DNA of 64,000 bases. It comes from Prochlorococcus sp. AG-402-N10 (GTDB lineage Bacteria > Cyanobacteriota > Cyanobacteriia > PCC-6307 > Cyanobiaceae). The notes under the pieces were generated by a model. The model was not told the DNA's origin and ran no database searches. It saw only the letters and a program-made list of their open reading frames with translations. The position numbers and the translations under genes are program-made. Below, piece after piece: positions 109 to 25,955 of this stretch (the first letter of the stretch is position 1; every line of letters starts with the position of its first letter). The stretch spans positions 62,001 to 126,000 of the forward strand of contig QCIU01000005.1 of the NCBI GenBank assembly GCA_003216465.1, in the 5' to 3' direction.

Positions 109-1361
109 TGGAAACAATTCAGAATTTACCAAAAATAGATAAAAAAGACTTTCCTCTATTAGAAAATAATTTTAAAAGTAAAAATAAAATTATTTATCTA
201 GATCATGCTGCAACAACGCAAAAACCAATTCAAGTTCTAGTAAAACTTGACGAATATTATAGAAATTTCAATGCAAATGTTCATAGGGGGGCTCATCAAT
301 TGAGTGCAAAAGCAACAGATGAATTTGAAAAAGCAAGATCTTTAATTGCTAGATATGTAAATGCTTATTCAACCAAGGAAATAATTTTCACAAGGAACGC
401 TACTGAAGCTATAAATTTAGCAGCTAGATCATGGGGAGAATTCACATTAAAAGAGAATGATGAAATCCTTTTATCAATAATGGAACATCATAGTAATATT
501 GTCCCTTGGCAAATGGTAGCTGCAAAAAATAAATGTAAACTCAAATTTGTAGGTATAGATCAAAATGGGAGATTAGATATTGATGATTTAAAGTCGAAAT
601 TAACAACAAAGACAAAATTAGTAAGTCTATTACACATCAGCAACACTTTAGGTTGTTGTAATCCAATCAAAGAAATAACTAAATTAGCAAAACAACAGGG
701 TTCCTTAGTTTTGTTAGATGCTTGCCAGAGTTTAGCTCATCAAAAGATAGATATTCGTGATCTAGAGATAGATTTTTTGGCTGGTTCAGGACATAAGTTA
801 TGTGGCCCGACAGGTATAGGATTTTTATGGTCTAAGAGAGAAATTCTAGAAAAAATTCCTCCTTTTTTTGGGGGTGGTGAAATGATCCAAGATGTTTTTG
901 AAGAGACAAGTACTTGGGCAGAACTTCCCCACAAATTTGAAGCAGGTACACCAGCTATTGCAGAAGCAATAGGATTAGCAGAAGCAATTAAATATATTAA
1001 CAATATTGGATTAGATAATATTAAAGAGTATGAAAAAGAGATTACTAAATATTTATTTGAACAATTAAACCAAATAAAAGGCCTTGAAATAATAGGTCCT
1101 TGTCCAAAAATAGACCCAAACAGAGCTTCGTTAGCAACTTTCTATGTAAAAGGGATACATTCAAATGATATTGCTGAAATTCTTGATTCGAAAGGTATTT
1201 GTATTAGAAGTGGTCATCACTGCTGTCAACCGTTGCATAGACATATCGGAATTAATTCAACCGCAAGAGTTAGTATGAACTTCACTACTACCCAAGAGGA
1301 AATAAATACTTTTATCGAGAAACTTAAAGAAACTATTAGTTTTTTAAATATAAATTCTTAA
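108..1361 (+). CDS. sufS: Cysteine desulfurase SufS
   Basis: YLDHAATTQKP, GSGHKLCGPTGIGFLW, RSGHHCCQPLH motifs. Confidence 0.95.
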   Translation: METIQNLPKIDKKDFPLLENNFKSKNKIIYLDHAATTQKPIQVLVKLDEYYRNFNANVHRGAHQLSAKATDEFEKARSLIARYVNAYSTKEIIFTRNATEAINLAARSWGEFTLKENDEILLSIMEHHSNIVPWQMVAAKNKCKLKFVGIDQNGRLDIDDLKSKLTTKTKLVSLLHISNTLGCCNPIKEITKLAKQQGSLVLLDACQSLAHQKIDIRDLEIDFLAGSGHKLCGPTGIGFLWSKREILEKIPPFFGGGEMIQDVFEETSTWAELPHKFEAGTPAIAEAIGLAEAIKYINNIGLDNIKEYEKEITKYLFEQLNQIKGLEIIGPCPKIDPNRASLATFYVKGIHSNDIAEILDSKGICIRSGHHCCQPLHRHIGINSTARVSMNFTTTQEEINTFIEKLKETISFLNINS

Positions 1362-3286
1362 ATATTTAAAGTTTTCTCTAAAAATTTTTGACTTTTTAAA
1401 AGAACTTTTTTCTTATTATCAATATTTCTAAAACCATGGCCCTCATTATCAAAAAAGATAACTTCTGAATACTTATTATTTTTAAGAATTTCTTCTTTAA
1501 TTTTTAATGTTTGTTTGTATGAAATAACTAAATCTTCTTTGCCATGAAATAATAACATTGGCTTTTTTAATTCACTAATTTTATTAATTGGTGATCGAAA
1601 TTTGTACTCATTACGAAATTTTGAATATTCACCTATGAGAGAATTTAGGTAAGCTTTCTCAAATCTATGAGTTTTATAATGCATATCATTTAAATCAAGC
1701 ACTGGGTATTTACAAATCGCTACTTTAAAAAGGTCACTTTCACATAATGAATTAATTGCAGTTAAACCGCCAGCACTATTTCCAAAAATTGCGACCTTAG
1801 CACTATTAACTAAATTTAACCTAATCAAATTTAGTACTAGTGCTTTACAGTCATAGGAATCAACAATTCCCCATTTATAATTCAATCTCTCTCTATACTC
1901 TCTACCAAAACCAGATGAACCTCCATAATTAACTTCAGCAACAGTAAATCCTAGCGAAGTCCAATATTGCACTTCCGAATTTATAGACCCATCAAAGTAG
2001 GCAGTAGGACCACTATGTGCCTTTACAATTAATGGTGATTTTATAAACCTTTCTAATATTGGCTTATAAATAAATGAATGTGTCCATTGATTATTAAAAC
2101 CTTTAAACCAAAAAGATTCTGGTTTTGAATAATCATTTACAGACTCAAATGATATCTTTTTTAATAAAGTAGCAGAATCTTTTTCTTCAAAATCATTCTC
2201 AATTAAATAGCCAAAGTAGCCCATAGTATTACCTTTAATAACTAATTTTTGATCAGAAACACTGAAATCACTTATTGAACTAAAAGGTAATGAGAACTCT
2301 TCGATACATGAAAGGTTCTGGTACTTTTCGAGTATCCAACTATTTTCTTTTTTAGCTAAACAAAATAAGTTTTTAATGGTTCCAGAAAAAAATGAAATTC
2401 CTGATAACCACTGAGGAGATCCGTATTCAGTTAAAGATTTAATTATTCTTTTCTTGAGAACAATCTTTTTAATATCAGTTACATCAAGAAAACATAAATT
2501 CCACCAACCTGTACTATCTTCAGAACAGACTAATAGGTTCTCAGTAATCCAATAAGGTTGAAAAAAAGAAACATTTTTTCCCTGATTAATAACTTTATTA
2601 GTAAATTCTTTAATTTCTTGTATCTCTCCATCATTATCAAAGCTTGCAAAAAATAGATGATTTTTTTCCCAAGGCATATAAGAATTATTCCATTCTAACC
2701 AACAAAACAAATTACCTTTGGTATTAGAAGATAAATTTCCAGCGAAAAAATCAAACTTTTTAAGTTTACGAATTTTTTGTTTAGTTTTTTTTAAATTTAA
2801 TGAGAATAAATAATCTTTATTTTTTATTTCACATAAACCGTATAAAAGATTTTTTTTATAAATAATAAATGAAGTATCAAAATTACTCTCTAATGATTTA
2901 GTAAGTTGTCTTGGTTTCATATCAGATAAAAGATATTCATTATTATTTTTAAGCACAATCTCTTTAACTTTAAAAATTTGTAACCATAGCGCTCTTGAAA
3001 ACTGATCGATCCATATCAAATAGATTTGATCATTTACATCTTTACATTGATATGGTTTCCCCCCATAACCATGAAAATTACTTTTAATATAAAAATTATC
3101 ACCCGTTAATTGTTGTGGGATTGCTTCTTTATCATTAAAAGGCCTAGCAAAAATTGCATTTTTATATGTTTGCTTATCAGGAATAACATCTACCCAGAAG
3201 ATCATATTCTTTATAAGTGATGTCTCTTTAAAAGATATTTTTTTAATATCGCTTTGTCTAATTTTTAAATTCTCAGTATTACTCAT
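1358..3286 (-). CDS. S9 family prolyl oligopeptidase-type peptidase
   Basis: C-terminal alpha/beta hydrolase: VKAHSGPTAYFDG, GNSAGGLT, HGKEDLVISYKQ, GHGF. Confidence 0.85.
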   Translation of the reverse strand: MSNTENLKIRQSDIKKISFKETSLIKNMIFWVDVIPDKQTYKNAIFARPFNDKEAIPQQLTGDNFYIKSNFHGYGGKPYQCKDVNDQIYLIWIDQFSRALWLQIFKVKEIVLKNNNEYLLSDMKPRQLTKSLESNFDTSFIIYKKNLLYGLCEIKNKDYLFSLNLKKTKQKIRKLKKFDFFAGNLSSNTKGNLFCWLEWNNSYMPWEKNHLFFASFDNDGEIQEIKEFTNKVINQGKNVSFFQPYWITENLLVCSEDSTGWWNLCFLDVTDIKKIVLKKRIIKSLTEYGSPQWLSGISFFSGTIKNLFCLAKKENSWILEKYQNLSCIEEFSLPFSSISDFSVSDQKLVIKGNTMGYFGYLIENDFEEKDSATLLKKISFESVNDYSKPESFWFKGFNNQWTHSFIYKPILERFIKSPLIVKAHSGPTAYFDGSINSEVQYWTSLGFTVAEVNYGGSSGFGREYRERLNYKWGIVDSYDCKALVLNLIRLNLVNSAKVAIFGNSAGGLTAINSLCESDLFKVAICKYPVLDLNDMHYKTHRFEKAYLNSLIGEYSKFRNEYKFRSPINKISELKKPMLLFHGKEDLVISYKQTLKIKEEILKNNKYSEVIFFDNEGHGFRNIDNKKKVLLKSQKFLEKTLNI

Positions 3287-3361
3287 TTAGAAAATCTATT
3301 TAAAGTGAATTTTAAGTGCTAGTATTTTTATAGCTTAACTGTTGAGTAAATAATTTTTTCC

Positions 3362-3967
3362 GTGGCAAATCATTTTTCACAACTCGCAAAGAAGTCAGAA
3401 TCAAATGGGGCTACTAAAAAAGTTTCTAAAGAGCAAACAGGAGCTCCATCACTAGAAATATACAAACTTGGTGATGACGTATTAAGGCAAAATGCCAAAA
3501 GAATAAGTAAAGTTGATGATTCTATAAGAAATTTGGCAAAAGAAATGCTTCAGAGCATGTATGCAGCAAAAGGGATTGGACTAGCTGCTCCACAAATAGG
3601 AATCAATAAAGAGCTACTTGTAATTGATGTAAATTTTGAAGATTCAGCTGCTGATCCATTAATTTTAATAAATCCAGAAATTACCGATTTTGGAACAACA
3701 TTAAATTCATATGAAGAGGGTTGTTTAAGTATCCCAGGAGTTTATTTAAACGTTGTAAGACCATCAACAATTAAATTAAAATTTAGAGATGAAATGGGCA
3801 GACCACGTAAAATGAAAGCTGATGGACTCTTAGCAAGATGCATTCAACATGAAATGGACCACCTAAATGGAGTTTTATTTGTTGATAGGGTTACTTCAAA
3901 AGAAGATTTAAATACGGAACTAATTAAAGAAGGATTTCATGCAAAAGATGTAATACCCATCAACTGA
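3362..3967 (+). CDS. def: Peptide deformylase
   Basis: GIGLAAPQIG, EGCLSIPG, QHEMDHLNG motifs; GTG start. Confidence 0.97.
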   Translation: MANHFSQLAKKSESNGATKKVSKEQTGAPSLEIYKLGDDVLRQNAKRISKVDDSIRNLAKEMLQSMYAAKGIGLAAPQIGINKELLVIDVNFEDSAADPLILINPEITDFGTTLNSYEEGCLSIPGVYLNVVRPSTIKLKFRDEMGRPRKMKADGLLARCIQHEMDHLNGVLFVDRVTSKEDLNTELIKEGFHAKDVIPIN

Positions 3968-3987
3968 TTTAATATTTCAAAAAAATA

Positions 3988-4329
3988 ATGACAGAAACAA
4001 CCATATTTAGCAAAATAATAAGTGGTGAAATTCCTTGCGAAAAGCTTCATGAAGATAAACTTTGTATTGCATTTAATGATATTGCTGCTCAAGCTCCAGT
4101 TCATTTTTTAGTAATTCCTAAAAAACCATTAGTTAGTTTATATGAGTGTTTGGAGGAAGATAAAGATTTATTAGGTCATCTTCTTTTGATAGGAAAAAAT
4201 ATTGCTAAATCTAAGAAATTAAAGAATTGGAGAACTGTTATAAATACTGGAGAAGAATCTGGGCAAACGGTATTTCATTTACATATACATTTTTTAGCTG
4301 GTAGAAAAATGAGCTGGCCTCCTGGCTAA
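3988..4329 (+). CDS. HIT family protein
   Basis: FSKIISGEIPCEKLHED; HLHIHFLAGR histidine triad. Confidence 0.95.
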   Translation: MTETTIFSKIISGEIPCEKLHEDKLCIAFNDIAAQAPVHFLVIPKKPLVSLYECLEEDKDLLGHLLLIGKNIAKSKKLKNWRTVINTGEESGQTVFHLHIHFLAGRKMSWPPG

Positions 4330-4375
4330 AACTCTCAAAAAAATTTGTTTTTAGCTATAAATAAAGATAAAGAAC

Positions 4376-4663
4376 ATGAATACTCCTGAATCTCTAAAAA
4401 GTAAACCAAAAAATCTCGTCAATACAATTACCTCTAATTGGGAAAGGCTAGATGAATCTCAAAAAATAGTTTTAATTAAAATTTGGAAAGTATTAACATA
4501 CAAATGGCAATTACAAATTTTATTTAATTTACCATTTCTGATTTGGTGGTTATTAGATGTATCATTTACTAAAGTACACAACTTTGACCTAAAATTAATA
4601 TCTTATCTCAATCTTCCAGATTGGGCTCTCACATTTATAGGATTCGGTCAATCTTCTGTCTAA
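4376..4663 (+). CDS. Conserved hypothetical small protein with one TM segment
   Basis: ORF with plausible start, hydrophobic FNLPFLIWWLLDV. Confidence 0.6.
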   Translation: MNTPESLKSKPKNLVNTITSNWERLDESQKIVLIKIWKVLTYKWQLQILFNLPFLIWWLLDVSFTKVHNFDLKLISYLNLPDWALTFIGFGQSSV

Positions 4664-4699
4664 AATAATTTTAACTACGATTAAGAACAATATATATTT

Positions 4700-6685
4700 A
4701 TGACAAAATCAATAAGACAAAATAAATCAAAAATAATATTTCAACTTCAAAAATTAAGAAGATTATCTCAACCTTTTTTTCTACCAATTGAACAAAGTAA
4801 TGGGATTCAATTTATTTGGCTTTTAATTTCTCTCTTGTTTTGCGTTGGTGGAATCGTACTTGTATTACTCACAGGCCTTTTAAATTTACTAGAAAACTTT
4901 CAACCAGTTTTACTGGATAAATATTTTGGAGGAGTTGTTGAAACTCTAAATACAATTTGGTCTGGGAAATGGGGTTTAATCTTTTCAGCACTATTTCTAG
5001 TAGGTTCATCAAGTTTCTTTAGTTTTAGACATCAACTCAAAGCGAAAAGATGGACGCATTGGATACTTTTAGGAATAATCGTTTTAATGCTTTTGGTAAT
5101 TAATGGAATCAATGCGGGTATTGGTTTCATTGCTAGAGATCTAACAAATGCCTTAGTTCAAAAAGAACAGGAAGGATTTTATAGGATTTTAGCTATATAT
5201 GCTTCATGCTTCATCATTGCCCTCCCAATAAGATCTCTTCAAATTTTCTTTACTCTAAAATTAAGCATTATTTGGAGAGAATGGTTATCAAAAAGCTTAA
5301 TAACTCAATACCTGACTAATAGAGCATATTTCAAGTTAAATCCAAATGATGAACAGGCAACTGATGTTGACAACCCAGATCAGAGAATTTCTGAAGATAC
5401 AAGAACATTTACGGAACAAAGTCTTGAATTCACAATTGGGGTATTTGATGCAATTTTAACTTTTTCGCTAAATATACTTATCTTATACACGATCAGCAGA
5501 ACTCTTACTTTTTCTTTGTTTACATTCGCAGCTATTGCTTCGTCTCTATTGATTTATGCAGGAAAAAAGTTAGTAAAAATAAATTTTGATCAACTAAGAT
5601 ATGAAGCCGACTTTAGATATGGGTTAGTTCATATAAGAAATAATTCAGAAGCAATCGCTTTTTATTCTGGAGAATTTCCAGAAAAAGTTGAGAATCAAAG
5701 AAGATTAGGGGTGCTAGTTAACAATTTCAATCTCCTAATTATCTGGAAGACAATTATATATACAATGAAGAGATCTACAAATTATGCAGGTATATTTTTT
5801 CCATATTTAATTATGGCTGTTCCATATTTTACTGGGGTAATTGATTATGGAAAATTTATTCAAGCAAATTTTGCATTTAATATGGTTGAAGGATCCCTAT
5901 TTTTCATAGTTAATAGAATTGATGAACTTGCAAAGTTCACTGCTGGTATAAGTAGGTTAGAGGGGTTTCAATCTGAGGTTGAGTTAATAAGTAAAGAAAA
6001 ACCATCTTCAAAAAATATTTCAATTACGAAGAAACCAGAAATAGTAATAAACAATGCTTACTTATGTACTCCTGGTTCAAGTGACCCTATCATTACAGAT
6101 CTAAGCCTAAGTATTCAAAATAAGGATACTCTCCTAGTGACAGGTCCTTCAGGCTGCGGTAAAACTTCTCTTCTTAGAATGATTAGTGGTTTATGGCAAC
6201 CTGAGAAAGGATCAATCCAAAAACCTCAAACAGGAGATCTACTTTTTATTCCTCAAAAGCCATATATGATTTTAGGCTCACTGAGAGAACAGCTTTGCTA
6301 CCCTACAGAAGTTAATAAATTTAGCGATGATCATTTATTTTCTGTGCTTAAAGAAGTTAACCTTAACTCTCTTATAGAAAGATACCCAGATCTTGGAGTA
6401 AAACAAGATTGGCCAAGAATATTATCTCTTGGAGAACAGCAGAGGCTTGCTTTTGCAAGACTTTTGCTTAACTCTCCCCAATTTGCCGTTCTTGATGAAG
6501 CAACCAGTGCATTAGATATTGAAACTGAAAAACATCTTTATCAATTACTAATCAAACGAGAGATATCTCTTATAAGTGTTGGCCATCGTCCTACTTTAAA
6601 AGAATTTCATAATAATGTTTTAGCATTAAATGGTAAAGGAAACTGGAAATTATTATCAACAAATAACTATAATTTTGATAATTGA
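4700..6685 (+). CDS. ABC transporter, fused permease/ATP-binding protein (SbmA/BacA, ABCD-like)
   Basis: GPSGCGKTSLLR Walker A, LSLGEQQRLAFARLLL signature, AVLDEATSALD Walker B. Confidence 0.9.
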   Translation: MTKSIRQNKSKIIFQLQKLRRLSQPFFLPIEQSNGIQFIWLLISLLFCVGGIVLVLLTGLLNLLENFQPVLLDKYFGGVVETLNTIWSGKWGLIFSALFLVGSSSFFSFRHQLKAKRWTHWILLGIIVLMLLVINGINAGIGFIARDLTNALVQKEQEGFYRILAIYASCFIIALPIRSLQIFFTLKLSIIWREWLSKSLITQYLTNRAYFKLNPNDEQATDVDNPDQRISEDTRTFTEQSLEFTIGVFDAILTFSLNILILYTISRTLTFSLFTFAAIASSLLIYAGKKLVKINFDQLRYEADFRYGLVHIRNNSEAIAFYSGEFPEKVENQRRLGVLVNNFNLLIIWKTIIYTMKRSTNYAGIFFPYLIMAVPYFTGVIDYGKFIQANFAFNMVEGSLFFIVNRIDELAKFTAGISRLEGFQSEVELISKEKPSSKNISITKKPEIVINNAYLCTPGSSDPIITDLSLSIQNKDTLLVTGPSGCGKTSLLRMISGLWQPEKGSIQKPQTGDLLFIPQKPYMILGSLREQLCYPTEVNKFSDDHLFSVLKEVNLNSLIERYPDLGVKQDWPRILSLGEQQRLAFARLLLNSPQFAVLDEATSALDIETEKHLYQLLIKREISLISVGHRPTLKEFHNNVLALNGKGNWKLLSTNNYNFDN

Positions 6686-6694
6686 AAAAATATT

Positions 6695-6946
6695 ATGAAC
6701 ACTAGTGAAGAAAAAAGTGATTTAGAAGCAGAAGTTTTGAATGATAATAAAGAAGAAGAAATTAACTACATCTCTGAAAGTAATAAAGAAAAGGAAACCG
6801 AAGATATTCCAAATATTTATAAATTTGGATGGAGTAATTATGCAGAAATCACAAATGGAAGATTTGCAATGCTGGGATTTTTAGCAATTATTTTAATTGA
6901 ATTATTCAGCCAAAAATCATTCTTAAATTGGGCTGGGATTATTTGA
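6695..6946 (+). CDS. High-light-inducible (Hli) chlorophyll-binding-like protein
   Basis: FGWSNYAEITNGRFAMLGFLAIILIE motif. Confidence 0.9.
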   Translation: MNTSEEKSDLEAEVLNDNKEEEINYISESNKEKETEDIPNIYKFGWSNYAEITNGRFAMLGFLAIILIELFSQKSFLNWAGII

Positions 6947-7876
6947 TTAATCATCAAACCTGGAACTGTTATCTCTAGGCTTATTTTTTTTTGTTCCTAC
7001 AGTATATCTTCCTGTTTGACTTTTAGAAGTTGATCTTCCAGTAGTGGATGTTCTACGAGCTTGACGAGGCTTTTTGACTTCATTAATATTTTGAGAAAAT
7101 GATGCATCTTCTATTTTTTCTATTTTAGTCTGTGATCTTATTGATGGTTTATTTATTTTATTTGAGGAAAGAGAGGAATCTATAGGAGATGAATTATTTG
7201 ATTGCCTAGAAACTTCCTGATTAGGTAATGGTCGAGAACCTCTTTTTACTTCACTTCTTGAAGATCGCCTTTCTCCAAAACTACTTCTTCTCTCATCATT
7301 ACTCACTCTTTCTCTAGAAAGATTTCTTCTTCTATTTGGCTCATCATTATTAAACTGATCAGATTCTCTTAATGAAGAGCGTCTTCGACTAACTGCAGAT
7401 TCAGGGATTGCTCTTGATGAATTTCTGCGTTGCAATCTACCTTCCATATACTCATCTTCTATCTCATCTTCTTGAGGTTTGAATCTTCTAGAACGTCTAC
7501 CAGAATCTTCAAATTGATCATATTCATCATCAAATCTATTTCTTGAAGAATTTCTGGGAATATCTGGGATCTGCTCATCTTCAAAATAAGACGACCTTCT
7601 TGCTTGATCAGTTGCTACACCTCTCAATCGAACACTTTCATATGCAAAAAATACTGTCGTTCCTGCTAATAAGAACTGTCCAAATTGCAGAATAGGATCT
7701 AATCTCCATCCTTGAAAAAATAATATACCTCCGCATAAAAGACCTATTGCTGCAAAAAAAACATCATAATCTCTTGCTAATGCTGGTTTAAATGACCTCA
7801 GAAAATATAGGCCACCTCCACATACAGCTAGAACGATGCCAACAATACTGGCCCAATTTAGACTAGCATTGACCAC
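6947..7876 (-). CDS. ycf66: Ycf66 family protein with Arg/Ser-rich C-terminal tail
   Basis: N-terminal membrane domain followed by low-complexity RR/SS tail; adjacent psbX. Confidence 0.8.
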   Translation of the reverse strand: MVNASLNWASIVGIVLAVCGGGLYFLRSFKPALARDYDVFFAAIGLLCGGILFFQGWRLDPILQFGQFLLAGTTVFFAYESVRLRGVATDQARRSSYFEDEQIPDIPRNSSRNRFDDEYDQFEDSGRRSRRFKPQEDEIEDEYMEGRLQRRNSSRAIPESAVSRRRSSLRESDQFNNDEPNRRRNLSRERVSNDERRSSFGERRSSRSEVKRGSRPLPNQEVSRQSNNSSPIDSSLSSNKINKPSIRSQTKIEKIEDASFSQNINEVKKPRQARRTSTTGRSTSKSQTGRYTVGTKKNKPRDNSSRFDD

Positions 7877-7957
7877 ATTTTTTCTCCAAAAAACTTATTT
7901 TAATAAGATGCAAAAAAAACACCTCTATTTATAGTTTACTTAAATCTTCTATAAAAA

Positions 7958-8146
7958 CTAGCGTCTACGTGAAGCTGAAGTACGATCAAGTGAATCTTTT
8001 TGGCTAACAAAGATCAAAAAGGCCGCTGCAGGAACAACTATTAGTAAGGCAGCTGCTAAAAAACTCCCTATCATATTAACTGCAGAACTATTAGTCACTT
8101 CTGGAGAAAGAGCAGTAGCTATTATTAAATTTGAAATTTGAATCAC
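7958..8146 (-). CDS. psbX: Photosystem II protein PsbX
   Basis: 62 aa single-TM protein, [18 protein letters not shown]; adjacent to ycf66. Confidence 0.8.
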
Positions 8147-8228
8147 TTTTTTAAAATTTAAATTCTGAATTAATAATAAGAATTAAATCCTAACTTATGG
8201 GATCTTTATTAAGATGAATTAAATAATT

Positions 8229-8543
8229 GTGATTTCATTGTTTCAAAACTATTTGCCAATTTTAGATCTTACGCTAAGCATTCTACTGTCGTTTCTAACG
8301 CTAGTATTTTTAATAAGATTAATATTAAGTTGGTATCCTAAAGTTGATTTAAGTAAAGGTTATTGGTTATTGATTGCAATCCCAACTAGTTCTATTTTAA
8401 ATTTCACAAGAAAACTTATTCCTCCTATTGGCGGGGTAGACGTAGGTCCAGTCATTTGGATAGGAATAATAAGTTTTTTAAGAGAAATATTAGTTGGTCA
8501 ACAAGGACTAATCAAACTAGCTATTCAACAGACTATTAGTTAA
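8229..8543 (+). CDS. YggT family membrane protein
   Basis: LILSWYPKVD, TSSILNFTRKLIPPIGGVDVGPVIW. Confidence 0.85.
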   Translation: MISLFQNYLPILDLTLSILLSFLTLVFLIRLILSWYPKVDLSKGYWLLIAIPTSSILNFTRKLIPPIGGVDVGPVIWIGIISFLREILVGQQGLIKLAIQQTIS

Positions 8544-8561
8544 GTAATGAGCATGTCTTAT

Positions 8562-9911
8562 TTAATAGTTAGGTAATAGCTCTTCTTCAACATATTTTGT
8601 ATGAATTTTACCTTCCACAAATTTTCTTTTATTAAGAAGGCTTAAATGAAAATTAATAGTTGTTGGAATCCCTGTAACGGCGCATTCATTTAATGCTCTA
8701 TTCATTCTTTTGATAGCAGTATTACGGTCTTTGCCCCAAACTATTAATTTACCAATGAGTGAATCATAAAATGGAGGAATTTCATAACCAGTATAAACAT
8801 GACTATCAACTCTTACTCCAGGACCTCCAGGAGGAAGCCATCCAGTTATCTTACCAGGCGAAGGACGGAAATTATGTGAAGGATCTTCTGCGTTAATTCT
8901 GCATTCAATAGCATGGCCATTTAATTGAATATCGTCTTGATTAAACTCTAAATTCTTACCTCCAGCTATCTTTATTTGTTCAGCAATTAGATCAACCCCT
9001 GTAACCATCTCAGTAACTGGGTGTTCTACTTGAATTCTTGTATTCATTTCCATAAAGTAAAAATTATTATTATCATCAACTAAAAATTCAACCGTACCAG
9101 CTCCTTCATAAGAGATACTTTTCGCTGCAGAAATGGCAGCCTTACCCATTTTCTGCCTTAGAGAAGGACTAATGGCTGGACTGGGAGATTCTTCTAATAA
9201 TTTTTGATGTCTTCTTTGTACAGAACAATCTCTCTCTCCAAGATGAATGACATTGCCTGACCTATCAGCTAAGATTTGAACCTCCACATGCCTTGGCTTT
9301 TTGATAAATTTCTCCATATATAAACCATCGTTACCAAATGCCGCTTCTGCTTCACCTTGAGCTGCTTTAAACATTTTTTCTAAATTAGCTTTATTTTCAA
9401 CCAATCTCATTCCTCTACCTCCACCCCCAGCTGTAGCTTTGATAATGACAGGGAATCCAATATCATCAGCCATTTTATAGGCCTCTTCAACACTTGATAA
9501 TAAACCTTTACTTCCAGGTACAGTAGGTACGCCAACTCTTTCCATAGTCTCTTTAGCAGTAGATTTGTCACCCATTGATCTGATGGCATTAGGAGATGGT
9601 CCAATAAAAGTTATGCCATGATCGCTACACATTTCCGCAAATTTATCATTCTCCGCGAGAAAACCATAACCTGGGTGAATAGCATCAACACCTCTTGATG
9701 TGGCTGCAGCTAAAATATTTGGAATATTTAAATAACTTTTATTACTTAGAGAGTCTCCAACACAAACGGCTTCATCAGCTAATTGTACGTGTAATGCCTT
9801 CTTATCCACAGTGCTATAAACAGCAACAGTCGCAATGTCGAGCTCTCTACAACTTCTGATGATTCGTAAAGCTATTTCTCCACGATTAGCAATTAAGACT
9901 TTTTCAACCAT
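8562..9911 (-). CDS. accC: Acetyl-CoA carboxylase biotin carboxylase subunit
   Basis: [41 protein letters not shown]. Confidence 0.97.
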
Positions 9912-19116: not shown

Positions 19117-19174
19117 ATTATATTTAAAAAAATGATGAAATAACTATTCAATACTCATTTTGCCTGCCAGAATA

Positions 19175-19243
19175 TAAATGTCCAATTGGACTAGGTGATC
19201 TAAACCAATGTTTCGGACAGCGGTTCGATTCCGCTCAACTCCA
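19175..19243 (+). ncRNA. ssrA: tmRNA acceptor piece (3' part of permuted ssrA); 5' limit approximate
   Basis: T-arm GCGGTTCGATTCCGC and CAACTCC-A pairing with GGGGTTG at 19253. Confidence 0.85.
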
Positions 19244-19252
19244 TTTTGATTA

Positions 19253-19447
19253 GGGGTTGTAATGGTTTCGACGGGGCGTCAGGAAGATGACTGAAGCCTG
19301 CTCGGTTAGAGCAAAAACACAAACGCTAACAAAATCGTTAGTTTCTCCCGTCAAACAGCACCAGTTGCTGCTTGATCTTAAAGGAGATGGGGTTATATCA
19401 GCCTTATCAACCAAATGATGCAAGGAGCCTGGAAGGGCTCCACCACT
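19253..19447 (+). ncRNA. ssrA: tmRNA coding piece, tag ANKIVSFSRQTAPVAA*
   Basis: GGGGTTGTAATGGTTTCGACGG 5' end; tag reading frame GCTAACAAAATCGTTAGTTTCTCCCGTCAAACAGCACCAGTTGCTGCTTGA; 3' hairpin GGAGCC..GGCTCC. Confidence 0.93.
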
Positions 19448-19604
19448 TTAAATTTTTCAAAATTTAGTATTAGATAATTTGTTAATTTGTAAAATTTACT
19501 GCAATAGAATGTATTAGAAATTATTTTTAATATTTTATGAGTATAAACACTTAGAACTTAACGAGAAAATTATTTTAAGGTATTAAAAATTCTTGCTTTG
19601 AATA

Positions 19605-20869: not shown

Positions 20870-21541
20870 TTGTTTATTACTGTTTGTGGACAAAAAGGAG
20901 GTGTTGCCAAAACTTGTACAAGTATACACCTTGCAAGTGTCTGGCATGCTGAAGGCAAAAAAGTCTGTATAGTAGATGCTGATAAAAATAGATCTGCTTT
21001 AGCGTACTCATCCAGAGGAAAACTTCCATTTCCCGTAATTCCAGTTAACTCAGCAGCAAAAGCATCAAGATCTTCTGAAATTGTTATTACTGATGGACAA
21101 GCAAGCAGTGATGAAGAAGAACTTAAACATCTTGCCTACGGATCAGATTTAGTAATTCTTCCAACAACTGCAAAGGCAAGATCAGTTGAATTAACTGTTG
21201 AATTATCTAGTTTATTAAAAAGCTTAAAAGTTAACCATGCAGTGGTTATTGTAAAAGTAGATTCTAGACAACAAAAAGCTGCTCAGCAAGCAAAGGAAGC
21301 TTTAGAAAATTTCGGTTTACATGTTTTTAATACATTTATCCCCTTGCTATCAGCATTTGACAAGGCAGAGGCATCTGGGAATGCAGTTTTTGAAGCAGTA
21401 GACGATTTAGGAAGATCAGATCCCCGTCGCATGACGGGCTGGTCTGCCTACTGTTCTATCGCATCTCAAATTCCATGCCTGATTTCGAAGCACTCATCCG
21501 ACACCAACAACTTAAACAACCAACATCCAATCAGCGCTTAA
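20870..21541 (+). CDS. ParA/MinD-like P-loop ATPase
   Basis: CGQKGGVAKTCTSIHLA deviant Walker A; VDADKNRSA; TTG start. Confidence 0.85.
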   Translation: MFITVCGQKGGVAKTCTSIHLASVWHAEGKKVCIVDADKNRSALAYSSRGKLPFPVIPVNSAAKASRSSEIVITDGQASSDEEELKHLAYGSDLVILPTTAKARSVELTVELSSLLKSLKVNHAVVIVKVDSRQQKAAQQAKEALENFGLHVFNTFIPLLSAFDKAEASGNAVFEAVDDLGRSDPRRMTGWSAYCSIASQIPCLISKHSSDTNNLNNQHPISA

Positions 21542-21717
21542 AAGTTGTTGATTCGCCTAATTTCGAAAAAGCAAAAAACGAATATCAAAAAATTAGTCAG
21601 CCTAGAATATTAACTAATCTTTTAGGAGGTTTTATAGGTTCTTTAATTGGAACTTTAACAATTCTTTTCCTTTACATAAATGATTATCTACCAATTGATT
21701 TACTAAAAATTCAGTAA
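21475..21717 (+). CDS. Small membrane protein overlapping the end of the ParA-like gene
   Basis: 80 aa ORF with a TM segment LLGGFIGSLIGTLTILFLYI. Confidence 0.6.
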   Translation: MPDFEALIRHQQLKQPTSNQRLKVVDSPNFEKAKNEYQKISQPRILTNLLGGFIGSLIGTLTILFLYINDYLPIDLLKIQ

Positions 21718-21954
21718 TATAATCACTATTAGTTTTATATACCTTAAAAAAGATTGCTATGACTATGTTATACCCTATGAATTTAGTGGTATTTAGGTGG
21801 TACAAAACTATTTTTATCCCTGAAATCGTAGTGATACATTAAGCAATAGTATTTTGACGGTACAAAAACTAAATTAAAATGAAATTTAAGAAATTAAAAT
21901 TTTCTTTTCTAAATATTTAAATGCATGCAAAAATAATAAAAAAATAATTTAATT

Positions 21955-22473
21955 ATGTTGAAGTTTTTATTATTCATTTTGATATCTTTATTTCCTATTA
22001 GTGCCTTCGCAATTGAGATCAGTTCACCTGCATTTAAAGATGGAGAAACAATTCCCAAAAAGTATGGATGTAAATACAACGGTGGTAAAGACATATCCAT
22101 GCCAATAAATTTTTCAAACGTCCCAAAAAATGCACAATCAATCGTCCTTATAATGGATGATCCTGATGCAAAAAAAGTCGTAGGAAAAACTTGGGTACAT
22201 TGGATATTGTCAGATATTCCTCCTGATACAAAATATTTAGATGAAGTTAAATATGGAAAAGTTGGTATTGGAGTTACAGGGAAAAACAGTGATAGAAGTA
22301 AAAAGTATTTTGGTCCTTGCCCACCCAAAAATGAACATCAATACAACATCAAAGCTTATTCTCTAAACACAAAATTAGAGAAAAGTTTAAAAGCATTAAC
22401 CCAGGAACAATTTGAGAAATTATATGAAAACCAAATTATCAGTTCATTTATGATTTCTGGTAAATTTAAATAA
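21955..22473 (+). CDS. Secreted YbhB/YbcL (Raf kinase inhibitor/PEBP-like) family protein
   Basis: Signal peptide; ISSPAFKDGETIPKKYGC, MDDPDAK, WVHWILSDIP, GKNSDRSKKYFGPCPP. Confidence 0.92.
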   Translation: MLKFLLFILISLFPISAFAIEISSPAFKDGETIPKKYGCKYNGGKDISMPINFSNVPKNAQSIVLIMDDPDAKKVVGKTWVHWILSDIPPDTKYLDEVKYGKVGIGVTGKNSDRSKKYFGPCPPKNEHQYNIKAYSLNTKLEKSLKALTQEQFEKLYENQIISSFMISGKFK

Positions 22474-22815
22474 TTAAAGTTTCTAATTTAGTGGTAAAAA
22501 AGTGGTATCAACAAAACATCATCTCTCAAAACATATGCCCTGGAATGGATTTGGCGTTAGGTAGTATATTCCGAATTGGTTTCCACGGACCTTTAAATCC
22601 ATTGGTATAACTAGATTTATGTCTTCAAAATTGGTGTTTTACTGGTGTTATAAAGCAATTTCAACACTATCAAACCTATTCTATTGGTCTCACTAAGTTG
22701 GTGTTATAAAAGTGCTATACAGGCACTAATAGTAAGTATTAATTAAACAGTAAGATTTATGCATGTCGAAATTAAGTTAAAAAAATGCTATTTTAAAACA
22801 TAGATTTTTATTTTT

Positions 22816-23112
22816 ATGGAAAGAGAAGGTTATTCGAGTTTAAGTATTACTTCCTTTATCTTTTCAATTTTAGGATTCCTATTTTTATTTGCATGGGCAT
22901 ACGCGGCAGTAATTAATGCTGCAGAAATGACTGTAGGAATTTTAATTATAATTCAATGGACAATGAATTTAATTGGTCTTGGTACAGGAATTCCTTCTTT
23001 ATTCACTAATTCCAAAAAAAGACTATTTGGAATATTAAGTGTTGTGTTCTCAACCAGTACAGGTTTGATAACTCTTTCAATGGTTTTAATTGGTTTATCC
23101 ATTTCATCATAA
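22816..23112 (+). CDS. Hypothetical multi-TM protein
   Basis: 98 aa hydrophobic ORF. Confidence 0.6.
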   Translation: MEREGYSSLSITSFIFSILGFLFLFAWAYAAVINAAEMTVGILIIIQWTMNLIGLGTGIPSLFTNSKKRLFGILSVVFSTSTGLITLSMVLIGLSISS

Positions 23113-23413
23113 AATTAAAAAATCTAATCCAATTAAAATATTTTTTTTCGTAAGTTTAGATCAAATATTAAAAATATGACTTTCATAAAAACTTAATTTA
23201 GAAAATTTATTAAGTGGAAATCAAGAGTTAAAACACCGTTATATAAAATTTAAATCACCAAGATCCCCTGCCCTGCGATAGGTTTGAATCAGGTTGTATA
23301 CTCGCTATTAGTATCTGCACCTCTCTAAAATCGATATAATCGCTTGCAGTCAATGTATTTGTAATTAATTCTTTAAGTTTGAGCATACTATTTCCAATAA
23401 AAATAATTAAAAA

Positions 23414-24115
23414 TTATATGCAATATCCACGTTGCCTATAGTTAAATTGAATCTCATGGTTCCAAACAGGCTGTGAGAGAAAAACTAAAGAAAATTTCAC
23501 TTCTTTATTTTTTAAATCTTTTAAGATTTCAATGAAATCATCAAAATCTTTGAGGATTCCTTTTATATCTTTAGAAGAAATTCCTGAAGATACTTTTTTG
23601 TCAAAATTTGCAATATAATTTTCGATTGAATTTTTTAGGTCCAGTAAAGTTTTTATCCCTTTATCAGGATCATTAGAACTTGGATTATTACGAGCATCCA
23701 AAAAATATGACAATCTTTCAGTACCTTTTGAAATTGGAATTCTCTCTAAAAAATTAATATATTCAAGGATAAAATATCCTGCAGAGAAATTAGTTTTTAC
23801 GTGTGTTTCTGCTTGCCAATTTTCCTTTCCAAAACCATTCCAATAAGTAGGTGGACAAATATTTATATCTGTCTGTATTACTAATCTTTCATATTCACCA
23901 TTAATATCTTCCAATAGGGCACTTATAAACCAATAAATCACCAAAAGGGATACAGGTAAACCAATAAAAAATTGCCAAAGAGGACTTGGTGGTGAAAAAA
24001 TCGCCCACAATGAAAAAATTGCTAATAAAAAGCATATCAACGGAATAGGATTAAATAAATTTGCAAGGACCCTATTCCTTTTTCTACGTTTCTTACTTAA
24101 AAAGACTACATCCAT
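23414..24115 (-). CDS. Hypothetical membrane protein
   Basis: ORF with two N-terminal TM segments; ATG at 24115 preferred over TTG at 24124. Confidence 0.6.
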   Translation of the reverse strand: MDVVFLSKKRRKRNRVLANLFNPIPLICFLLAIFSLWAIFSPPSPLWQFFIGLPVSLLVIYWFISALLEDINGEYERLVIQTDINICPPTYWNGFGKENWQAETHVKTNFSAGYFILEYINFLERIPISKGTERLSYFLDARNNPSSNDPDKGIKTLLDLKNSIENYIANFDKKVSSGISSKDIKGILKDFDDFIEILKDLKNKEVKFSLVFLSQPVWNHEIQFNYRQRGYCI

Positions 24116-24314
24116 TTTTAGCAAAATATATTCATAATTTAGTGGTATTTTAGTGGTATCTTGATTTTTAGAATTCTTAAATTGATTAGTATCACTGGGT
24201 TTTGAGGTTAAGTGGTATATTCACTATTAATACAAACCTTTTGGATGTGTAATACAAAACTTTTTTAGAGTTCAATCATAGCAAGTGATTTAAAGCACTA
24301 AAAAGAAGAAATAG

Positions 24315-24356
24315 TTATCACACCATTATCACAATCGGGTCACAGAGTTATCACAC
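24315..24356. repeat. Four TCACA motifs phased at exactly 11 bp
   Basis: TCACA at 24318, 24329, 24340 and 24351. Confidence 0.9.
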
Positions 24357-24371
24357 GTTGACTAAGTGATT

Positions 24372-24611
24372 TCATTGGCAGCCCATAGGGTAAAGGTCAG
24401 GATCAGCACAAGGGTTTAAATCAGGGTCTGCCTTCCAGTTGAGATCAGGGTCTGCCTTCCAGTTGAGATCAGGGTCTGCCTTCCAATTAAGGTCACTATC
24501 TCCGTAAAGATTGCCTCCTGCCTTGTTTCTATATCCCGCATCCACTTGAATACTGGAAAAAAGCAATCCAGATAAAGCAAGAGAAGAAAGAAAAAGATTA
24601 GAGAGTTTCAT
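24372..24611 (-). CDS. Secreted small repeat protein, DPDLNWKA repeats
   Basis: Signal peptide MKLSNLFLSSLALSGLLFSSIQVDAG followed by tandem 8-aa repeats. Confidence 0.65.
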   Translation of the reverse strand: MKLSNLFLSSLALSGLLFSSIQVDAGYRNKAGGNLYGDSDLNWKADPDLNWKADPDLNWKADPDLNPCADPDLYPMGCQ

Positions 24612-24716
24612 ATTCTTTACTAATTAGTTATCACAATCTAATCACACCATCACAATATGTATTACAAAACTAATACTTTTTAATAGTGATACCTATGCTT
24701 TTGAGTTATCACAAAA

Positions 24717-25955
24717 TCAGGTCGTGTATTCGCTATTTATTTCAACGTATTTTTTAGACAAATCACAACCCCAAGCAGTTCCTTTTTCCGTACCAGAATT
24801 AAGATTAAGAGCTATAGATACTATATCCTCAACTAAATATTTACCATTCATTTTTGTTCGCATGTAATTGGCAACTTTGTTGGCATCATATTTATTTAAC
24901 TTGCCCTTTTTCAAAATCTGAAAATTTCCAATATATAAATCAATGACATCTAATTTAAAATCAATCCCAGAATTGCCTGCAGCTGAAATAATTCTGCCCC
25001 AATTGGGATCACAACCGTGAATTGCAGTTTTTACCAGTGAAGAATTACATATAGATTTAGCCATCTTGATTGCATCTGAATTATTCTTTGCTCCCTCAAC
25101 CAATACCTCTAACAAACAATTTGCGCCTTCTCCATCTCTAGCGATATTTTTTGCCAAGCTTTGGCATACAATATCAATTCCTGATTGAATCTTTGATAAA
25201 AATTTCTTATCAATTTTTTTTCCTGAATTTATTGCTAAAAAGGCATCATTAGTACTTGTCTCTCCATCCACCGAAATAGCATTAAAAGACTTTTTAACAG
25301 CAATAGAAATCATCTTATCCCACTCTTCTTTATCAACACCAACATCACATGTAAGAAAGGCTAACATTGTAGCCATATTTGGATAAATCATTCCTGATCC
25401 TTTTGCAAAACCAGATATCTTTACCTTTCTACCTTCAATAAATGTTTCTATAGTTATTTTTTTATCAACTAAATCAGTGGTTAAAATAGCTTCTGCAGCA
25501 TTCTGTAAACTATTTGTTTTTAACGCCTTGACCAAATTAGGTAAATTATCAATTAAATTTTTTATTTGAATGGGTATACCAATTACACCAGTTGAGCACA
25601 TTAAAACTTCTTCTTCATTTATTCCTAATAATTTTGAGACCTCCTTCGTAGCAATCAAAGTATGTTGAATACCAGAATCCCCTATACATGCATTTGCTTG
25701 TCCGGAGTTTATTAATATTGCTCTTATAAGACCTGAAGATTTTTTAATCCTTTGTTCACAAATATCGACACAGGATGCTCGGACTATTGATTGTGTAAAC
25801 AGACCACTACAAATGCTATTTTCTGGAGCTAATATTAAAGCCAAGTCTTTCTTCTTAGAATCCTTTAATCCTGCAGAGATGCCTGCAAAAGAAAAACCAT
25901 CAGGCGTTTCTTCACCATCACTCACAAATGACCAATTAGTCTCAAGCTCAATCAA
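24717..25955 (-). CDS. argJ: Bifunctional glutamate N-acetyltransferase/ornithine acetyltransferase
   Basis: KGSGMIYPNMATMLAFLTCD, HGCDPNWGRI motifs. Confidence 0.96.
   Translation of the reverse strand: MIELETNWSFVSDGEETPDGFSFAGISAGLKDSKKKDLALILAPENSICSGLFTQSIVRASCVDICEQRIKKSSGLIRAILINSGQANACIGDSGIQHTLIATKEVSKLLGINEEEVLMCSTGVIGIPIQIKNLIDNLPNLVKALKTNSLQNAAEAILTTDLVDKKITIETFIEGRKVKISGFAKGSGMIYPNMATMLAFLTCDVGVDKEEWDKMISIAVKKSFNAISVDGETSTNDAFLAINSGKKIDKKFLSKIQSGIDIVCQSLAKNIARDGEGANCLLEVLVEGAKNNSDAIKMAKSICNSSLVKTAIHGCDPNWGRIISAAGNSGIDFKLDVIDLYIGNFQILKKGKLNKYDANKVANYMRTKMNGKYLVEDIVSIALNLNSGTEKGTAWGCDLSKKYVEINSEYTT

Follow-up and report, generated by a model that had tools for sequence, protein, structure and literature searches.

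The 3' end of argJ as a probable attachment site for stacked, mostly integrase-less cassettes in Prochlorococcus and other Cyanobiaceae

This study concerns a stretch of 64,000 nucleotides from Prochlorococcus sp. AG-402-N10 (contig QCIU01000005.1, positions 62,001 to 126,000; hereafter the window, within which all coordinates below are positions). In it the minus-strand gene argJ is followed by four small cassettes, each ending in a copy of the argJ 3' end. Our analysis indicates that this 3' end is very probably the attachment site of a family-wide integration system, most of whose cassettes would be minimal and moved in trans. The initial annotation of the window had placed, on the minus strand, three argJ-tail copies that stop at 24208, 23289 and 22557, a degenerate copy at about 21710, and a single cargo gene in each interval (509, 919, 732 and 847 bp: a DPDLNWKA peptide, a membrane protein, a small transmembrane protein and a YbhB/PEBP protein); sequence and translation bear out both. 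Neither an integrase open reading frame nor a tRNA gene was found within the window array. Its components, read outward from argJ, are listed here; the end layouts named class I and class II are described further below.

24717..25955, minus strand: argJ, the target gene (PF01960, E=2.7e-130), with the C-terminal end VEINSEYTT*; its last codons form the presumed attachment site.
24717..24737, minus strand: tail copy 0 (NSEYTT*, AATAGCGAATACACGACCTGA), the proximal junction; its right half would have been brought by cassette 1.
24208..24716, minus strand: cassette 1 (509 bp), its cargo gene lying between two sets of arm repeats and the whole closed by tail copy 1.
24630..24714, minus strand: P' arm-type repeats of cassette 1, TTGTGATAA at 24714-24706 and TGTGAT at 24646-24641 and 24635-24630, with offsets of +2/3, +70 and +81 from the stop.
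24372..24611, minus strand: cargo of cassette 1, an exported-looking DPDLNWKA repeat peptide of 79 amino acids (translation; no Pfam match).
24315..24356, minus strand: P arm-type repeats of cassette 1, namely three sites similar to TTGTGATAA that begin at 24356, 24334 and 24323.
24208..24228, minus strand: tail copy 1 (NSEYTT*), stop at 24208.
23289..24207, minus strand: cassette 2 (919 bp), with a class II left end and a right end resembling another cassette type.
24139..24159, minus strand: class II P' arm pair of cassette 2, ATACCACTAA twice, spaced 11 bp, offsets +48 and +59 (from sequence and geometry class).
23414..24124, minus strand: cargo of cassette 2, a membrane protein of 236 amino acids with a homologue in a cassette of L046.
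23289..23309, minus strand: tail copy 2 (NSEYTT*), stop at 23289.
22557..23288, minus strand: cassette 3 (732 bp), the interval between tail copies.
22816..23112, plus strand: cargo of cassette 3, a transmembrane protein of 98 amino acids (translation).
22557..22577, minus strand: tail copy 3 (NSEYTT*, AATTCGGAATATACTACCTAA), stop at 22557.
21710..22556, minus strand: cassette 4 (847 bp), oldest by position and the sole argJ cassette in L057, L062, L080 and L091.
22489..22509, minus strand: class II P' arm pair of cassette 4, GATACCACT and TTTACCACTA (read from sequence).
21955..22473, plus strand: cargo of cassette 4, a YbhB/YbcL-type PEBP protein of 172 amino acids (PF01161, E=4.6e-31).
21782..21802, minus strand: class II P arm pair of cassette 4, GTACCACCTAA and ATACCACTAA (from sequence and geometry).
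21710..21730, minus strand: displaced original tail of argJ in decayed form (NSDYIT, stop lost), 825 bp from the ParA motif as in empty sites.
20870..21541, plus strand: ParA-like gene (PF01656), the conserved right flank used as a ruler; its spacing is constant (819-831 bp).

Cassette 2 may well be a fusion of two cassettes, possibly after a deletion. A transfer-messenger RNA (tmRNA) gene lies at 19154-19466, about 1.4 kb past the ParA-like gene, near but outside the cassette array.

Across the genus, argJ was located in 128 of 151 genomes and 120 downstream regions were compared. In 52 of these regions the argJ stop lies about 825 bp (mostly 819-831 bp) from the ParA-like motif and only one tail is present. 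Sixty-four regions show a longer distance, with inserts of about 150 bp to 9.3 kb and additional tails, and in these the outermost tail is again found about 825 bp from ParA (819-836 bp in nearly all). In three genomes of low identity (L180-L182) the longer distance possibly reflects a spacing difference instead of inserts. Among a further 36 named genomes, 13 sites were empty and 19 filled, which brings the totals to 65 empty versus 83 occupied among 148 same-genus loci with both borders; the inserts always sit at the argJ tail. These counts treat genomes as independent despite common descent, and the contrasts are large enough to make a reversal unlikely. The pattern AATAGCGARTAYACNACNTRR was matched in 107 of the 151 genomes, nearly all of the matches listed lying at argJ, and its reversed control in none; the tail-copy pattern is not due to chance. 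Both kinds of strain that the initial annotation had proposed to look for do exist, namely those in which argJ is directly followed by the ParA block (at 819-831 bp) and those with different cassettes delimited by NSEYTT-stop copies. Identical genes in identical order everywhere, named there as the outcome at odds with mobile cassettes, were not found, since near-identical flanks differ in insert content: L131 is distinguished from L064 by a 2.7-kb insert despite 99% identical flanks, and L062 and L070 hold entirely different cassettes between flanks that are 99.6% identical. The proposal of an integration hotspot at which small elements stack up, each renewing the argJ tail, is supported by these empty and occupied alleles and by the replacement of the tail itself. 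One part has to be revised: the degenerate copy at 21710, which had been taken for the tail of the fourth element, stands 825 bp from the ParA-like motif and is therefore the host's original argJ tail.

Tail replacement can be read directly from the end of the gene. argJ ends in ACTACTTAA in 47 of the 52 empty loci as opposed to 3 of the 64 occupied loci, and in 44 of the latter this very sequence is found in the outermost (far-end) copy. All 64 occupied argJ genes end in NSEYTT*, their last nine nucleotides occurring in 20 versions of which 19 differ from the native ACTACTTAA. All 19 non-native versions encode Thr-Thr-stop, with 0, 5 and 32 changes at codon positions 1, 2 and 3; under random change, and with shared descent ignored, such an outcome has a probability of about 1e-23 (log10 P about -23). 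Counted in the same way, changes amount to 8/15/143 in the tail now in argJ, 7/13/84 in the inner copies and 46/55/58 in the outermost copies. The excess of third-position differences reported in the initial annotation thus holds for functional tails and inner copies and fails for the outermost copies, where its absence is expected because that tail is no longer under selection. The counts indicate that selection maintains argJ's current tail and is relaxed on the displaced outermost one. The crossover was located inside AATAGCGAATATAC. The right half of the window junction (ACACGACCTGA and the next ~20 bases; ACACGACCTGATTTTGTGATAACTCAAAAGCAT) is identical in L316, which belongs to another genus, and the left half in L316 is its own NAD version.

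The cassettes measured (n=106) have a median length of 1503 bp (range 144-9043) and most often hold a single gene and lack an integrase. Among the cargo are exported repeat peptides, surface-protein-like genes and methyltransferase-like proteins, as well as treble-clef proteins (L076), an SRA-HNH protein (L079) and, in L089, a helicase of type III-like kind that bears an Mrr nuclease domain. A recurrent cargo (L043, L073, L134, L154, L163) is the C-terminal domain of a DnaB helicase, with the N-terminal domain absent. The exported proteins of many class I cassettes form one homology group (16; L036, L039, L049, L054, L059, L064, L069, L074 and others), whose N-terminal parts are variable and whose longest member has an adhesin-anchor-like end (GVAGSTALTAALTALPQTSKESKLSCGVGTGAYSSRYAVGFGCAS). 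Some inserts of 144-272 bp between tail copies show no clear gene (e.g. L087, L086, L042, L124); such very short cassettes are perhaps scars of deleted cargo.

Short direct repeats in a single orientation mark the cassette ends. A pair spaced 11 bp is found within the first 115 bp of the left end in 69 of 96 cassettes (shuffled: 7) and, likewise, within the 139 bp before the core at the right end in 69 of 96 (shuffled: 7), compared with 4 of 82 cassette interiors; the mean repeat number is 3.9 versus 2.2 in dinucleotide shuffles. Two layouts can be distinguished. Class I has TGTGAT-like repeats with offsets of about +3, +70 and +81 or of +2, +88 and +99; class II has ATACCACTAA, ATAACACC, ATATGACAC, ATAAACCAG and others with offsets of about +46 and +57. 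The offsets of window cassette 1 (3, 70, 81) compare with 4, 72, 83 and 5, 70, 81 in two integrase-bearing elements of G178, a genome of another genus. Judged by this layout, the repeats would be arm sites as in lambda-type integrases, to which an integrase is predicted to bind. Some joined class II ends show inverted repeats to either side of the core (read from sequence), a feature that might hint at hairpin sites of the integron kind. A combined pattern of the core followed by TACCACTAAA within 30 bp had no match, because the actual distance exceeds 30 bp.

Comparison between genomes indicates that the cassettes spread horizontally. Relatives of window cassette 4 in L057, L062, L080 and L091 share 80-91% DNA identity with it, the flanks showing 74-76% (argJ) and 84% (downstream); in L062 the values are 91% for the cassette, 74% for argJ and 84% for the downstream flank. 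The ends of cassette 1 recur in L316 and elsewhere, in other genera, where they enclose a different exported peptide, and tandem tail copies occur in many genera of the Cyanobiaceae. Cassettes of the window cassette 1 type also lie inside tRNA-Thr and tRNA-Ser islands (L344, G190:C2; L372, G269:C14), apparently by occasional off-target integration. A viral origin was set aside: the core pattern gave one unrelated chance match in IMG/VR, the four end-repeat patterns had no match in searches of viral collections, and neither cassette end DNA nor the G178 integrase matched phages, the latter having no match in IMG/VR either.

These results bear on the view that the cassettes are dead remnants, i.e. 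larger argJ elements that decayed to one immobile gene between attachment-site scars. Outermost tails do decay, the 144-272 bp cassettes look like scars, and integrase-less neighbours at the Dehalococcoides ssrA gene have been interpreted as possible cis-mobilizable elements (PMC3146451). In contrast, arm-site ends are preserved around very different cargo, both ends are regular to a degree (69 of 96 each) that random decay would not lead one to expect, and the same cassette occurs in distant genomes at 91% identity where argJ has 74%. We consider the remnant scenario unlikely.

Integrases were sought at argJ itself. A profile of known integrases recognised none in the inserts, a screen that missed the divergent integrase of L152; with the G178 integrases as queries, two same-genus elements at argJ were recognised, L152 among them. 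In G178 one integrase open reading frame begins 127 nt past the argJ stop and a second begins 115 nt past the next tail copy. Within the genus, L240 (single cell AG-449-P16) holds a 6494-bp argJ element with TGTGAT repeats and an integrase of 468 amino acids (weak Pfam match), which also encodes a ParB-methyltransferase, a protein of 281 amino acids without assigned family and a serine resolvase (238 amino acids, PF00239), the last lying near the far end and seen in L240 only. L152 holds a 9043-bp argJ element of class II layout with an integrase of 527 amino acids (PF00589, 1.4e-6) by the far tail. Both end layouts therefore have integrase-bearing representatives, while most cassettes carry these layouts without an integrase. 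According to coordinates, PF00589 genes also stand beside argJ-tail copies in G264, G224, G220, G275, G195, G179, G174 and G269; altogether, in about nine islands of other genera, including G178 (twice), an argJ tail adjoins the gene of a divergent tyrosine integrase. The integrase adjoining the ectopic cassette in G190 (L344) was rejected as a candidate argJ enzyme, for it belongs to the tRNA-Thr island.

A tyrosine recombinase of about 390 amino acids next to a cobO-like open reading frame (L001:1423-2595 and equivalents) is present in 237 of the 251 genomes of the family, and among the 168 good ones in 166. Such a core enzyme, domesticated and acting in trans, could in principle move the cassettes in the manner of an integron with a distant integrase; its near-universal presence and the lack of an own integrase in most cassettes would fit. 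As the only enzyme it was set aside once integrase-bearing argJ elements had been found: elements with matching end layouts occupy argJ itself, and repeat sequences differ among cassette families, which argues against one enzyme. We regard this scenario as quite unlikely.

The G042 genome (G042:C1, ~42085 and 63187; L047, L186) has its native argJ tail about 21 kb from argJ and in opposite orientation, seemingly through an inversion with one end at an argJ-tail copy. An origin of the array by tandem duplication of the tail or by homologous recombination between tails, with no site-specific recombinase, could draw on this displaced tail and on the fact that tail copies are short direct repeats able to support deletion or exchange, but it is highly improbable given that homology at the site is short (~14-21 bp) and conservation ends at the stop codon of the tail copies, that the right halves are diverse synonymous versions and not copies of the host tail, and that both integrase genes and phased repeats at the ends occur.

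The scenario we favor is the following. In Prochlorococcus and other Cyanobiaceae, a family of small integrative elements would use the argJ 3' end as chromosomal attB. The last ~20 bp of argJ would be recombined with the matching core of a circular cassette by a tyrosine integrase; host argJ would be kept to the left of the crossover and the Thr-Thr-stop of the cassette supplied to the right, so that argJ is restored and the old tail displaced outward. Repeated insertion would stack cassettes, the newest adjoining argJ. Most cassettes would consist only of cargo plus arm-site repeats at both ends, and these minimal cassettes would be moved in trans by the integrases that larger and less common elements of the same end layout encode, the elements presumably passing by some route between cells.

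Several points weigh against this scenario. The same-genus inserts sampled yielded only two elements with an integrase, and helpers must therefore be rare or act from elsewhere; repeat sequences are more varied than the known integrases, which calls for several further helper integrases. The pairing of integrases with cassettes is drawn from their end layout. For integrase matches in other genera the placement comes from coordinates, sequences having been read for the G178 integrases only. About one quarter of the cassettes lack a clear repeat pair, perhaps through decay or fusion. In the assembled genomes neither an excised circle nor a reversion to an empty site inside one clone was seen, and single-cell assemblies are incomplete.

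Among known systems, the staphylococcal cassette chromosome (SCC) integrates at the 3' end of a protein gene, rlmH, and restores its tail, and its composite arrays include pseudo-SCC elements without recombinase; SCC cassettes are much larger and rely on Ccr serine recombinases. The argJ system differs from them in its target, in the tyrosine integrase beside the site and in its arm sites. It resembles integrons in its single-gene arrays, with one recombination site per gene and the newest gene beside a fixed platform site. In contrast to integrons, no integrase with an attI site adjoins the array: the window array and nearly all inserts lack an integrase open reading frame, and the argJ site consists of a coding tail plus double-strand arm repeats. 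Precise presence/absence junctions with a far-side repeat and a restored reading frame are those of site-specific elements at gene 3' ends, and the short direct repeats, phased and present to either side of the core, are those of a lambda-type attP. An integrase next to the attachment site is found in L240, L152 and the approximately nine islands, and neither in the window nor in most cassettes.

Tandem accretion at gene 3' ends has been described for integrative and conjugative or mobilizable elements together with cis-mobilizable elements (CIMEs), e.g. the ICESt1-related elements of Streptococcus thermophilus (PMC5704250). Like CIMEs, the argJ cassettes are integrase-less elements between attachment sites, in tandem at a target 3' end, which stand beside or replace related integrase-bearing elements sharing that site. 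They differ in that the usual unit is a single gene (~1.5 kb) with both sets of arm sites retained, in that they occur in more than half of the genomes of a streamlined cyanobacterium, and in that no conjugation genes were recognised. The ssrA islands of Dehalococcoides are likewise serial, each closed by a copy of the target 3' end, with variable cargo; 15 of 31 have no integration module (PMC3146451). The ssrA islands are larger, target a tmRNA instead of a protein gene and use a CcrB-type serine recombinase (PMC3146451). Closer to the host, a picocyanobacterial element with a divergent tyrosine integrase, a small serine recombinase nearby and variable cargo uses a tRNA-Phe or tRNA-Cys site (PMC10187409), and tycheposons, in the passage citing them in PMC10872708, use seven tRNA genes and measure 4-200 kb. 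Hosts, divergent tyrosine integrase and variable cargo are shared with these, and L240 has both an integrase that matches Pfam weakly and a serine recombinase of small size; its site differs from that of the described element (a comparison by description only). The argJ site is a coding end and not a tRNA gene, and most argJ units are tiny and integrase-less. In the literature searched, outside which the tycheposon paper (Hackl 2023) lay, argJ is not named as an integration site. Tandem accretion of integrase-less elements at gene 3' ends is already known; with respect to that literature the argJ-tail variant is new.

More tentatively, argJ may be the platform of a distributed cassette system. 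Its minimal attP-gene units would have evolved as such, not as remnants, and would pass back and forth between Prochlorococcus and Synechococcus; they would be moved in trans by integrases with several end specificities, cargo would be swapped between conserved end modules, and argJ would be the main slot through which these streamlined genomes acquire single genes. We hold this wider proposal to be possible rather than probable.

Prochlorococcus is the ocean's most abundant photosynthetic cell. How it gains single genes, its genomes being very small and its known mobile elements few, is an open question, to which the tRNA-linked tycheposons have recently provided an answer for larger cargo. 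argJ would be a second slot, this one in a protein gene, present across the family and in use in more than half of the sampled same-genus genomes. The attP/attB pair is open to testing in a laboratory host. Stacked tails would record the order of arrival and synonymous tails would act as barcodes, such that the insertion history becomes readable from sequence. The argJ slot, whose cargo comprises among others exported peptides, surface-like proteins and enzymes of restriction type, would let tiny genomes collect and stack single new genes.

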